DNA from: Candidatus Tanganyikabacteria bacterium
GTDB lineage: Bacteria; Cyanobacteriota; Sericytochromatia; S15B-MN24; VGJW01
Assembly (NCBI GenBank): GCA_016867265.1
Contig: VGJW01000006.1
Span: 1-64,000, forward strand
Length of the DNA: 64,000 nucleotides
Reading direction: 5' to 3'
Positions within the stretch are counted from its first letter, which is position 1. Every line of letters starts with the position of its first letter. The translations under genes were made by a program, and so were the position numbers. Positions 40,323-49,390 of the stretch are shown here, piece by piece. The notes beneath the pieces are model-generated. The model was not told the DNA's origin, ran no database searches, and saw only the letters and a list, made by a program, of their open reading frames with translations.

Positions 40323-41498
40323 ATGAGCCCTGCGACGATGGTGTCGCCAACTGCAGCGAACCCCTACGCTCTCTCGGAGGATCACTTGGCCCTCCGCGAG
40401 ATGGTCCGGGCCTTCGCGGAGCGCGAGGTCAGGCCCCTTGCGGCGCACATCGATGAAACCGAGACCTACCCGCGCGAGACCTTTTCGAAGCTAGCCGAAC
40501 TCGGCCTGATGGGCCTGCCTTGGCCCGAGGATCTGGGCGGTGCAGACGCGGACACCCTTTCCTATGCCATCGCCGTGGAAGAGCTGGGACGGGTCTGCGG
40601 TTCTACCGGCTTGTCCTTTGCCGCGCACGTTTCGCTGGGTACCGGTCCCATCGTGGCGTTCGGGACCGATGACCAGAAGCGACGCTACGTGCCTCAACTG
40701 TGTGATGGCACGAGCGTGGGTTCCTGGGCCCTGACTGAGCCGCAGGCCGGCTCGGATGCGGCCCGCCAGTTGACGACGGCCGTCCGGGACGGTGACCACT
40801 ATGTTCTTAACGGCACCAAGCAATTCATCACCAATGCCAACTGGTCCGAGGCCTGCATCATCATGGCCATGACGGACAAGAGCCAGGGCAACCACGGTGT
40901 CTCGAGCTTCATCGTGCCGACCGACACGCCGGGCTTCTCCGTCGGCAAGCTTGAGAAGAAGATGGGGATGCGCGGTTCGCCGACGTGCGAGGTCATCCTG
41001 CAGGAATGTCGGATCCCGGCGTCGCTTCTGCTGGACAAAGAAGGCACCGGCTTCAAGCAGGCCATGAAGACCTTGGATGGTGGCCGCATTTCCATCGGGG
41101 CGCTGGCGCTCGGCATTGCCCAGGGTGCCTTCGAGGAGGCCCTCGCCTACGCCAAGGACCGCGTGGCTTTCGGTCAGAACATCGGCAAGCACCAGCTCGT
41201 CAGCGCGATGCTGGCAGACATGTCCGTCCAACTCGAGGCCGCGCGGCTGCTGGTCTACCAGGCGGCGCGACTGAAGGACGCCGGCCAGCCTCACACGTTG
41301 GCGGGTGCCCAGGCCAAGCTCTTCGCCAGTGAGGCCGCGATGCGGATCACGACGGATGCCGTCCAGGTGCTGGGGGGCTACGGTTACACCCGGGATTTCC
41401 CCGTCGAGCGCATGATGCGCGATGCCAAGCTGTGCGAGATCGGCGAAGGCACGAGCCAGATTCAGCGGGTGGTCATCGCCCGGCGCCTCGGCGTCTGA
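40323..41498 (+). CDS. acyl-CoA dehydrogenase
   Basis: 391 residues from ATG 40323, 8 bases after GGAGG. FAD/acyl-CoA motifs: [61 protein letters not shown]. The catalytic base Glu is in [19 protein letters not shown], the position used by short/medium-chain enzymes. It performs the first step of beta-oxidation, feeding the bifunctional enzyme at 7220. Monocistronic with a strong terminator. Confidence 0.95.
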
Positions 41499-41508
41499 TC
41501 GAGAGCTC

Positions 41509-41550
41509 AAGCGGGGCCGAAGTCGAGGCTTTGGCCCTGCTTGCGTTTTT
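41509..41550 (+). terminator. intrinsic terminator of the acyl-CoA dehydrogenase gene
   Basis: A 14-bp stem with G-U pairs (41509-41522 and 41529-41542) is followed by GCG and a run of five T at 41546-41550, just before the convergent gpsA stop. Confidence 0.8.
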
Positions 41551-44212: not shown

Positions 44213-44330
44213 CCCGTCGGGACCCTGTCCCGGCCGTAAAGGCTTCGTGAAAGAATGCATGCTTAGTCGGGCACGGGGCATAGCTCATGAGTGCAGGTTG
44301 TCCGGCGACCACACCGGAGGAAGGTTGCAG

Positions 44331-44612
44331 ATGGCATCCATAGACAGGATTTCCGGTCCCGGCCAAGGGCTATCCGGGACCACGCAGTCCGGACCCAGCG
44401 TGCCCAGCTTTGGCGACATCAAGATGGACCGCAATACGGTCCTGCCTAGCTTTGACGATCCGGTGCGTGTCGCCGAGGCCGAGTCCTCCAAGGTCACGCT
44501 GCCGGTCGCGCCGGCAAGTCCCGTCACCATCATCCAGGACAAGCCGCCGGCCAAGCCCCTCGGCGAGACCCGCTTCGCCATCACCTCGGGACCGCCGCAA
44601 GGCGACCCCTGA
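44331..44612 (+). CDS. small Ser/Pro/Gly-rich protein, unknown
   Basis: 93 residues from ATG 44331 after GGAGGAAGG. Low-complexity composition: SGPGQGLSGTTQSGPSVPSF, then KVTLPVAPASPVTIIQDKPP. No signal peptide, no recognised domain; probably disordered. It ends 6 bases before the VWD-like protein gene, so both are likely one transcript and may interact. Confidence 0.55.
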   Translation: MASIDRISGPGQGLSGTTQSGPSVPSFGDIKMDRNTVLPSFDDPVRVAEAESSKVTLPVAPASPVTIIQDKPPAKPLGETRFAITSGPPQGDP

Positions 44613-44618
44613 CTGGAG

Positions 44619-45470
44619 ATGTGCGGTGGCGCCGTGGGCGCTGCCACCATCTCCGGTCCGCAGGGTTCCTTCCCCGTCAGCATCGACGGCAAGTACACGC
44701 TGCTTGAAAATCGAGACAACGTGCGCAATTTCCTGATGGAAGGCACGTTCGTCAACAAGGAGCTGCGGTCCGTCACCATGCAGTTCGGAGGCAAGGGCGA
44801 TTTCCAAGGGTCCGACGTTTACCACTACGACAAGATCAACTACACCAACGACAATCGGCTGTTCGTCAACGGGGTAGAGGTCACGGGCGACATGACCACG
44901 CCGCTCGGGACCAAGATCTCCAAGAATGGGGATCAGGTCGTCATCACGACGCCCGACGGCGACACGATGAAGATGTACCAGAGCTTCTGCGAGCCCCCGA
45001 CCATCAACATCGAGGGTGACCTGTCGAAGGATCGGCCGCAGGGCGCGATGCGGGGCTTGGTCGGCACCTTCGACGACAGCATTCCCGACGGCACGCCGCC
45101 CCTCGGCACCGGCCTGTTCACGCCGGGATCGGGTGGCGGGGCGGGCGACCCAGGGTGGGACACCTTCTGGTCGTCCTGGAATGCCCGAGAGAACGCCAAG
45201 CGTCAGGAGGACAAGCAGGCCGATGAGGCGGCGCGCGATGCCGACGTCAAGAAGGTCGCCGACCTGACGGACAAGATCGGCGATGCTTCCCTCGAGGCCG
45301 GTCGCAAGGCCAGCACTATGGCCCCGCCGGAAGTCGATCCGACGACCGGAGAGGTCAAGCCGCCCACCATCAAGGCAGCCGTGGTTCCCTCCACGACTCC
45401 CGCATCAGGGGGCTCGGGGACTGCCGGGACGGGCAGCGGTCCGTCAGCTGGTGCGGGTGGAGGAGGGTGA
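44619..45470 (+). CDS. protein with von Willebrand factor D-like domain
   Basis: 283 residues. Residues 2 to about 165 follow the VWD pattern: CGGAVGAATISGPQGSFPVS with IDGKYTLLEN, strand-rich LRSVTMQFGGKGDF, VVITTPDGDTMKMYQ, and the closing RGLVGTFDD, comparable to GLCGNFDG in VWD but without its Cys. A Gly-rich hinge leads to a charged helix (WNARENAKRQEDKQADEAA) and a Ser/Gly/Pro tail. No signal peptide is visible, which is odd for a domain that is usually extracellular. The family call is tentative. Confidence 0.6.
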   Translation: MCGGAVGAATISGPQGSFPVSIDGKYTLLENRDNVRNFLMEGTFVNKELRSVTMQFGGKGDFQGSDVYHYDKINYTNDNRLFVNGVEVTGDMTTPLGTKISKNGDQVVITTPDGDTMKMYQSFCEPPTINIEGDLSKDRPQGAMRGLVGTFDDSIPDGTPPLGTGLFTPGSGGGAGDPGWDTFWSSWNARENAKRQEDKQADEAARDADVKKVADLTDKIGDASLEAGRKASTMAPPEVDPTTGEVKPPTIKAAVVPSTTPASGGSGTAGTGSGPSAGAGGGG

Positions 45471-45473
45471 ACG

Positions 45474-46325
45474 TTGGCCTCTGAACGTTATGACGAGCTT
45501 GCGGAGACCCTGCGGGGTCTCCGTGACCGCTGGGAGGCCGTGCTCGGGGACTGGCGCGCCACGGGCCGGCTTGACCTTCAAGGGTGTCGCGGGATCGTCG
45601 ACGGTATAGCCATCTGCGTTCCGGGTGAACCGACGACGGCGGCGGCCTGCTTGCGCGTCAGCGGTCCTTACGCGGTGGCCCACGCAGTCAACATGACGGG
45701 CCTGGCCATCGCCGCAGGCAAGGCCACGGGTCTGTTCGGACAGGAGCTTCGGGACCTTGGCCTTGCGGCTCTCCTGCACGATCTGGGCAAGGAAGTTCCC
45801 GAGGGTCACCCTGAGGCGCAGGCACTTCTCGTGGCAGACGACCACGGACTCGTTGCCGAGCGGTTGCTTGCCGACGCAGGTGTCGCTCTGCCGGTCGAGG
45901 TGGTCGTGGGTATCCGAGACCACCACGAGCGCACGGGACGACAGGGCCCCGGAGGGCGGGAACCGTCTTTCCTGGCCGCGATCGTGGGCTTCTGCGATGT
46001 CGTGGACTCGCGCCTGACCCCCCACTTCGCCCGGGGTGCAACAGCTCCCGACCACGCCTTGAAGCTTGCGCTGATGGTGGGCGATTGCTTCCCCAAGGCC
46101 GTAGTCAAGGGCGTGGTCGACAGCTTCTCAGCCTACCCCCCGGGTGCATCGGTCCTGCTCAGCGACCATCGACGCGGTGTGGTGGTGCAGGACAGGCGTC
46201 AGGACTGCACGCGGCCCGTCGTCGAGGCTGAGGGCGAGCTTGTGGACCTCGCGGAAGCAGGCCTTCACGTCATCGATCTGGTTCGGGTTGCCGGCGAGGC
46301 CTTGCCTGTCCGGGCCACCGCCTGA
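45474..46325 (+). CDS. HD-GYP-type phosphodiesterase with degenerate GYP
   Basis: 283 residues, TTG start after GGAGGAGGG. The metal ligands of an HD-GYP domain are in place: His in YAVAHAVNMTG, HD in ALLHDLGKEVPEGHP, His in DDHGLVAERL, His-His in RDHHERTGRQGP and Asp in FCDVVDSRL. The GYP element itself reads QGPGG. The closing strand AYPPGASVLLSDHRRGVVV and TRPVV is typical of the family. It may hydrolyse a cyclic dinucleotide. It follows the VWD-like gene by 3 bases. Confidence 0.8.
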   Translation: MASERYDELAETLRGLRDRWEAVLGDWRATGRLDLQGCRGIVDGIAICVPGEPTTAAACLRVSGPYAVAHAVNMTGLAIAAGKATGLFGQELRDLGLAALLHDLGKEVPEGHPEAQALLVADDHGLVAERLLADAGVALPVEVVVGIRDHHERTGRQGPGGREPSFLAAIVGFCDVVDSRLTPHFARGATAPDHALKLALMVGDCFPKAVVKGVVDSFSAYPPGASVLLSDHRRGVVVQDRRQDCTRPVVEAEGELVDLAEAGLHVIDLVRVAGEALPVRATA

Positions 46326-47432: not shown

Positions 47433-48410
47433 ATGTCCGAGCGACGCTGGCATCCGATGCTCGGGGAGTGGGTCATCACCGCCACCCACCGCCAGGACCG
47501 GACCTTCCTGCCCCCGGCCGATTACTGCCCCCTTTGTCCGACGAGCCCCGGCGGGTTTCCGACCGAGGTACCCGAGGCCGACTATCGCTTTGTCGTATTC
47601 GACAACAAGTTCCCCAGCATGCGGTCGCCGGCGCCCGTTCCCGAGGTCGAGGGGAATGTCCTGCACCCGATTGCGCCCGCCGATGGCCACTGTGAAGTCG
47701 TGCTCTACACACCCCGTCATGAAGGGAGCCTCGGGGCCCTTCCGATCGGTGACCTCGTCAGGCTCATCAGGGTCTGGACCGACCGCTACCTCGAACTGGG
47801 CGCACGCCCGGGCATTGCCTGTGTTTTCATCTTCGAGAATCGCGGGGAGGCCATCGGCGTCACCATCCATCACCCGCACGGGCAAATCTATGCGTTCCCC
47901 TTCGTGCCGCCCAAGATCGAACGGGAACGAGATCAGGCCGCCGCGCATTTTGCACGGACGGGACGCTGCCTGATGTGCGACATCGTCGCCGACGAGCGCA
48001 CGGATGGCAGGCGACTCGTGGTCGAGGGGGAGCACTTCGTGGCGTTCATCCCGTTTTTTGCCCGCTACCCCTACGAGACCTACCTCGTCAGCAAGCAGCA
48101 TCGCGCCTCGCTTGCCGACCTAACGGAATCGGAGGTCACGGACCTTGCCCGCGTCCTGAAGGACCTGCTCGGACGCTTCGACGGACTGTGGCAGATTCCT
48201 TTCCCCTACATGATGGTCATGCATCAGGCCCCGGTCCGAACGGACGAGGCCCCCGGGGACCACCTGCATTTCGAGTTCTATCCCCCGATGCGGACGCCAC
48301 AAAAGCTCAAGTTTCTGGCCGGATGCGAGTCCGGCGCAGGCACTTACATCAACGACACCCTGCCCGAGGTCAAGGCCGCCGAACTCAGGTCCGTCCGACT
48401 GGAGCCGTAG
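47433..48410 (+). CDS. galT: galactose-1-phosphate uridylyltransferase
   Basis: 325 residues. The catalytic His lies in the HIT-like motif TIHHPHGQIYAFPFVPP; zinc-type cysteines in DYCPLCPTSP and RCLMCD; C-terminal half with HFVAFIPFFARYPYETYLV and GDHLHFEFYPP. It swaps UMP between UDP-glucose and galactose 1-phosphate in the Leloir pathway, after galK (50047). SD CGGAGGG upstream. Its 3' end overlaps the opposing galT-like gene by 26 bases. Confidence 0.95.
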   Translation: MSERRWHPMLGEWVITATHRQDRTFLPPADYCPLCPTSPGGFPTEVPEADYRFVVFDNKFPSMRSPAPVPEVEGNVLHPIAPADGHCEVVLYTPRHEGSLGALPIGDLVRLIRVWTDRYLELGARPGIACVFIFENRGEAIGVTIHHPHGQIYAFPFVPPKIERERDQAAAHFARTGRCLMCDIVADERTDGRRLVVEGEHFVAFIPFFARYPYETYLVSKQHRASLADLTESEVTDLARVLKDLLGRFDGLWQIPFPYMMVMHQAPVRTDEAPGDHLHFEFYPPMRTPQKLKFLAGCESGAGTYINDTLPEVKAAELRSVRLEP

Positions 48411-49377
48411 CGTCCCACGCGGCGCGATACAGATCCGCCGCGGCCTCCGGAGGAACCGGCTCCAGCTTCCAGCCTGTCGCCAACTCCCAGCCGCCCGTCA
48501 CGTCCTGTCTGGGGACCACATGGGCGTGCCAGTGAAAGGGATCGCTGCCCGCAAGGCATTGGTGAATCCACATGTTGGTCGCGGCACCGGGGCTCGTGGC
48601 CTCGATGAGCCGGTCTACCCGTGCCTGAATAGCAGCCCATCCCTCGACCCGGACACCGGACATGTTGGCAGCGCAGGTTTCCGGCACCAGCAGCAGTTCC
48701 ATCGGATGACTGCCCGCCCAAGGTGCCAGCAAAACGAAGCCGTGCCCTCTGGCAATCTGTCGTCCCCCGGCCGCCTCGGCCTCGACGACGGCACAGAGCA
48801 GACATCCTCCGTGGCGCTGACGGTGGTCGCGGAACCGCTCCTTCTCGGCCAGCAGCGTCGGAGGCTCGTCCCACGAAGCCACGAGTTGGCTGTGGGGGTG
48901 CGGCTGTGACGCGCCAGCCATGGCTCCCTGATTGCGGAAGACGGCAACGTGCGCGAAGCCCATCGCGGCGAGTGCCCCAAGGCGTTCGGCCTGTCCGCGC
49001 ATGGCCGCCTCGAGGTGGCGCGCGGGCATCCAGCCGATCCTTGCATGATGGTCCGGTCCCTCGATGAGTACCTCGGCCCTGCCCGGCAGTCGATGACGCT
49101 GCAGCAAGGTGTCCGGCGAAGGAGGCGGGGCCACAACGCCCCCCGGCGGATCGAGGCTAGCAAAGCGGTTGCGCACGACCCGGGCAATCCAGCCGGCCTG
49201 ACCCTCTTCCCTCCAGATGCCCGTATCCGGCTCTTCACGGCCCGGACAGAACGGACAGGCCTCGGCCGGGGGGGGAGGAGGCGGGGGAGGCAGGCGAAGG
49301 ACCCTCGGGCGGGTGCTACGTTCACCGGCCACGGCGACCCACTGGCCGCTCAAGGGGTCCCTGCGACGCTCGGACAT
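48385..49377 (-). CDS. second GalT-like nucleotidylyltransferase
   Basis: 330 residues from ATG 49377. It has the same architecture as GalT: RRRDPLSGQWVAVAGERS at the start, zinc-type CPFCPG and CLLC pairs, and the active-site AGASQPHPHSQLVASWDEP. A run of eight Pro interrupts the N-terminal part. A C-terminal FHWHAHVVPR replaces GalT's LHFEFYPP. It could use another sugar 1-phosphate (ADP-glucose phosphorylase-like) or be a true second GalT. A TACAGT box 7 bases before the ATG suggests a leaderless mRNA. Confidence 0.85.
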   Translation of the reverse strand: MSERRRDPLSGQWVAVAGERSTRPRVLRLPPPPPPPPAEACPFCPGREEPDTGIWREEGQAGWIARVVRNRFASLDPPGGVVAPPPSPDTLLQRHRLPGRAEVLIEGPDHHARIGWMPARHLEAAMRGQAERLGALAAMGFAHVAVFRNQGAMAGASQPHPHSQLVASWDEPPTLLAEKERFRDHRQRHGGCLLCAVVEAEAAGGRQIARGHGFVLLAPWAGSHPMELLLVPETCAANMSGVRVEGWAAIQARVDRLIEATSPGAATNMWIHQCLAGSDPFHWHAHVVPRQDVTGGWELATGWKLEPVPPEAAADLYRAAWDATAPVGRT

Positions 49378-49384
49378 ACGCTTC

Positions 49385-49390
49385 ACTGTA
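49385..49390 (-). promoter_or_regulatory. -10 box of the second galT-like gene, leaderless layout
   Basis: TACAGT on the minus strand, 7 bases from the ATG at 49377. Confidence 0.5.

Follow-up and report, generated by a model that had tools for sequence, protein, structure and literature searches.

The locus examined here raises the question of whether the DNA between positions 44331 and 45470 holds two genes or one. We analysed a window of 64,000 nucleotides from contig VGJW01000006.1 of a Candidatus Tanganyikabacteria genome (G000) and compared it with G001, a genome of another genus in the same family. The plus strand carries open reading frames at 44331-44612, 44619-45470 and 45474-46325, separated by 6 and 3 bases. 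These had been described in an earlier note as three genes; the coordinates and the strand were confirmed, but the first two frames are very probably not separate. They form one frame, the sole interruption of which is the TGA at 44610-44612, and the 6-base "gap" between them corresponds to two codons, CTG GAG, which are identical between the two genera. Translated across the TGA, the protein reads ...ITSGPPQGDP-[TGA]-LEMCGGAVG.... From these comparisons of sequence, we conclude that 44331-45470 is very probably a single gene for a selenoprotein of 379 residues, in which UGA 44610-44612 is read as selenocysteine (Sec). Its features are as follows.

44316-44324, plus strand: Shine-Dalgarno-like GGAGGAAGG before ATG 44331, read from the sequence; a similar one precedes the G001 start.
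44331-45470, plus strand: the proposed selenoprotein gene in full, encoding 379 residues if UGA is read as Sec; a single frame broken by one TGA, as in G001.
44331-44609, plus strand: N-terminal Ser/Pro-rich stretch, residues 1-93 (the former "small protein"); conservation is poor until about residue 75 but is seen near residue 90.
44601-45080, plus strand: VWD-like domain spanning residues 91-250 and starting ahead of the TGA; aligned with GDPH paralogues by hhalign at 96.7% probability (E 3.7e-10).
44610-44612, plus strand: the UGA proposed to encode Sec94, which hhalign places across from the GDPH His; at the same residue in G001.
44612-44657, plus strand: hairpin from the UGA, a proposed SECIS element with its loop at 44634-44636; -33.3 kcal/mol, z -4.6; G001 retains 18 of the 20 pairs.
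44622-44624, plus strand: codon for conserved Cys98.
44988-44990, plus strand: codon for conserved Cys220.

The G001 orthologue supplies the comparison on which much of this reading depends. There, the TGA falls at the same residue and is followed by an identical CTGGAGATGTGCGGTGG. The two sequences are 52% identical; identity is 8/51 for residues 16-75 versus 14/15 across the TGA (residues 91-105). Cys98 and Cys220, both conserved in G001, are the only cysteines of the product, and Cys98 lies four residues after the proposed Sec94 (UxxxC). Spaced GGAGG sequences stand upstream of the start at 44331 and of the start of the third gene, and likewise in G001. Synonymous-site conservation near the TGA showed no excess over that elsewhere (P 0.29). 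The protein has a narrow distribution: the only close match among 59 relatives was in G001, and the full-length protein was found in 2 of the 18 class members and in 2 of 386 genomes of the phylum, the same two in each case. Scans of genome_contigs and viral_contigs with the orthologues, and of genome_contigs for the GDPH paralogues, gave no matches in these sets, from which the source's own or near genomes may be absent.

The domain relationship bears directly on the nature of the TGA. When a profile of the two orthologues was compared by hhalign with one of three GDPH paralogues, the alignment started at the GDP before the TGA and continued past it, pairing GDP-TGA-LEM with GDPH-VRM, so that residue 94 is matched to the GDPH His. 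Because this alignment runs through the TGA, the apparent stop lies inside the domain. The relatives carry His at the position aligned to residue 94. A profile of six GDPH relatives matched both orthologues at about 59 bits. The GDP motif is missing from one relative, in G003, and only one of two MAFFT alignments set GDP against GDPH. The VWD relationship proposed earlier is thus upheld by profile comparison with the paralogues; the window protein alone gave no Pfam match to PF00094, and its G001 orthologue scored 16.1 bits, below the 22.9 cut-off, while a G001 paralogue (L014) scored 31.5 bits, above it. The profile of the joined protein had no match in the PDB up to E 1, and a single-sequence AlphaFold2 model (pLDDT 37) was too low in confidence for use of its fold. 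With the frame shared, the CTG GAG spacer identical and the TGA inside the VWD-like domain, the Ser/Pro-rich frame is probably not a gene of its own. As a separate observation, G001 encodes at least four GDPH-type VWD-like proteins (L013, L014, L015 and L016), the tails of which are rich in repeats or in Pro/Ala; by reading, they have no obvious export signal, so that VWD proteins of intracellular appearance have expanded in this lineage.

The source genome also contains the machinery for selenocysteine. In G000, selA (C25:7565-8920) adjoins selB (from C25:8959), and tRNA-Sec and selD genes are found on two other contigs.

C25:7565-10788, C11:42536-42628 and C1:190252-191181: Sec-system loci of G000 (L040, L017, L026, L091), comprising the selA-selB region, tRNA-Sec and selD, respectively.

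Among 20 genomes, selA and selB exceeded the cut-off in the same seven (G000, G001, G002, G004, G007, G008 and G010), all of them among the 18 class members. The same seven gave tRNA-Sec matches of at least 67 bits, and three other genomes passed the Rfam cut-off weakly; out of 10 loci with matches, ARAGORN was given seven and called tRNA-Sec with anticodon UCA at every one. SelD exceeded the cut-off in eight of the 20 genomes. Seven of the eight selD genes, including those of G000 and G001, contain one in-frame TGA, at the Sec position, with a Lys two residues on in all seven; the resulting UxxK is the pattern listed for SelD in the accessible part of PMC9312934. The presence of selA, selB, tRNA-Sec and a TGA-bearing selD suggests that UGA is also read as Sec elsewhere in the source genome. 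Formate dehydrogenase, taken as a second UGA control, showed no in-frame TGA among the matches listed from 12 genomes. In G003, selD (L086, C109) contains an in-frame TGA, and neither selA nor selB exceeds the cut-off; this assembly is 64% complete, so the absence may reflect missing sequence. None of the 18 genomes of the class had PsaA/PsaB, which were found in 20 of the 59 relatives; the phylum is thus most likely Cyanobacteriota and the class, which we take to be Sericytochromatia, non-photosynthetic. As far as the accessible parts of PMC1794560 and PMC9312934 go, the Sec trait had gone undetected in Cyanobacteria; this class has a complete selenocysteine system within a phylum reported there to be without the trait.

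A decoding signal would be expected to accompany such a UGA, and both genomes have a hairpin beginning there. Folding of 52 bases from the A of the TGA gave -33.3 kcal/mol (z -4.6) for the window sequence versus -26.1 kcal/mol (z -2.1) for that of G001. Of the 20 pairs, G001 retains eighteen, including one that is changed on both sides, and breaks the other two; with two sequences, covariation is uninformative. The loop at 44634-44636 is GUG in the window and GUC in G001; numbered from the U of UGA, its G-U occupies positions 25-26. The bases that matter in E. coli fdhF are U17, G23 and U24 (PMC8659212, in part). We count the loop G-U, set against G23-U24 of fdhF, in favour of the Sec reading; the loop-bulge U17 has no clear counterpart here. 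The hairpin of selD lies farther from its UGA than does that of the VWD gene. Energy alone is not distinctive in this GC-rich window, where the hairpin ranks 6th among 1436 TGAs, 53 of which are flanked on each side by a long open frame. A similar hairpin at TGA 22510, minus strand, was considered and rejected, as this TGA reads as an ordinary stop ahead of a terminator. Elsewhere in the window, a strong hairpin at 41496-41549 (-31.1 kcal/mol) lies where two genes converge, beyond the acyl-CoA dehydrogenase-like gene's stop and short of the point at which the gpsA-like gene ends (both named by reading), and is likely a two-way terminator.

We weighed three other explanations for this arrangement. 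If the genes were separate, the TGA would be a true stop, the VWD protein would be made from ATG 44619 by termination-reinitiation and the hairpin would tune the coupling. Such an arrangement would fit the distance of 6 bases between stop and ATG in both genomes, the use of UGA as a normal stop by other genes of the window and the outcome of the search for a Cys homologue, none of which was found among the 386 phylum genomes or in genome_contigs and viral_contigs; Cys-containing homologues are usual for most selenoprotein families, although not for all (PMC1794560, in part). It does not fit a domain homology that starts before the TGA, a 6-base spacer that is identical between genera or the existence of a Sec system in the genome. 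Furthermore, ATG 44619 has no spaced Shine-Dalgarno sequence: the only candidate, GGAG, abuts the ATG with zero spacing. We consider separate genes improbable.

Programmed read-through of the UGA with a standard amino acid, stimulated by the hairpin, would look alike in its in-frame continuation and downstream structure, but the Sec system of this genome is complete and its selD itself contains a UGA, and we judge this explanation very improbable. An assembly error or a decaying gene might be suggested by the fragmentation of G000 and G001, which are both multi-contig (41 and about 510 contigs); the fact that two assemblies, at 52% identity, share the TGA and keep the frame open after it leaves this explanation with next to no credence. 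The selenoprotein reading, for its part, rests on combined evidence and not on any single item. At the level of sequence it is well supported by the one frame, the conserved TGA, the domain homology on both sides and the Sec machinery; its weak points are that it comes from two genomes, with no Cys homologue, no elevated codon conservation and a G001 hairpin of z -2.1.

In the proposed mechanism, SelB and tRNA-Sec would decode UGA 44610-44612 as Sec, directed by the hairpin that starts there. The product would be a cytoplasmic protein with a disordered N-terminus followed by a VWD-like domain in which the GDPH motif has become GDP-Sec. We read it as cytoplasmic because neither half has a strongly hydrophobic segment, in keeping with the earlier observation that the VWD protein has no export signal. 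The further suggestion that a disordered small partner assists export was rejected, since the small frame runs on into the VWD part without a shift and no strongly hydrophobic segment occurs in either half; the evidence favours one UGA-recoded protein, of which the Ser/Pro-rich part would be the N-terminus. Sec94 could bond reversibly with Cys98 or Cys220, making the VWD-like domain a redox-active site or sensor, and the chance that the Sec has a redox role seems to us about even.

The predicted protein resembles bacterial selenoproteins in having a UGA inside a conserved domain, a candidate SECIS hairpin directly after it, selABD with tRNA-Sec and a nearby Cys (UxxxC) (PMC9312934, in part). 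It differs from those tabulated in the accessible part of PMC9312934, where there is no VWD entry and the terms "von Willebrand" and "VWD" are absent, and it departs from the usual selenoprotein families in that no Cys homologue was found and the paralogue residue is His. FCGBP contains VWD domains with a self-cleaving GDPH motif, and substitution of Asn for its His inhibits cleavage (PMC10880436, in part). The window protein is like these VWD domains in its domain relationship, in the GDP of GDPH and in having beta-rich relatives in the same lineage; unlike them, it would carry Sec in place of His and has no export segment. By analogy with the Asn substitution, Sec at this position may abolish or alter the self-cleavage chemistry. 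No VWD selenoprotein, and no report linking Sericytochromatia with selenocysteine, was found in the open-access literature searched, and a term search of the accessible parts of PMC12013277 and PMC5330540 returned nothing bearing on a VWD selenoprotein. If the reading is correct, the gene would define a new selenoprotein family on a domain not usually considered redox-active. Since Sec stands where the paralogues have His, not Cys, the usual searches for Cys homologues would miss such a family. Reading the UGA as Sec would also mend an annotation that splits one gene in two.

The third reading frame follows the VWD gene in both genomes, and the two genes are probably co-transcribed.

45474-46325, plus strand: HD-GYP-like protein with a degenerate GYP motif; Pfam HD, ligands invariant in two genomes, PDB relatives.

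Its description as an HD-GYP-type protein that keeps the metal ligands and has a degenerate GYP held up. The product exceeds the Pfam HD cut-off (E 1e-7), and the residues that we take to be the HD-GYP metal ligands (H70, H102-D103, H124, H150-H151 and D175), together with K106, are all conserved in the G001 protein. The GYP motif is not intact, reading HHERTGRQGPGG in the window and HHERTDGRGPMG in G001. PDB relatives include cyclic-dinucleotide phosphodiesterases (4r8z, 5z7c), which the protein resembles in its HD domain and presumed metal ligands, and from which it differs in the degenerate GYP and in the position of its gene behind that of a proposed VWD-type selenoprotein. Given the retained ligands and these relatives, a role in redox-linked signalling is plausible: the HD-GYP-like neighbour might be the output partner, tying redox or selenium status to cyclic-dinucleotide turnover. 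A functional link between selenoprotein and HD protein nevertheless seems doubtful to us. It is unlikely, though worth stating, that the two form a selenium- or redox-gated second-messenger module, in which Sec replaces the His of a self-cleaving GDPH in a cytoplasmic VWD domain, Asp-Pro chemistry or a Sec-Cys bond provides a redox switch, and the HD-GYP-like enzyme relays its state as a cyclic-dinucleotide signal.

Conservation of the gene order, proposed earlier as a check, extends to one second genus: VWD-HD linkage holds in G001 but was found nowhere else in the class and phylum genomes searched. The HD orthologue is likewise confined to G000 and G001, the next match (E 1.7e-36) being another HD protein. 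Upstream, both genomes carry gpsA and acyltransferase genes (named by reading; 58% and 59% identity), and the downstream neighbours differ (by reading). In the window, two convergent genes that read as GalT-like follow at 47433-48410 (plus strand) and 48385-49386 (minus strand), their ends overlapping by 26 bases, and beyond them lies a galactokinase-like gene.
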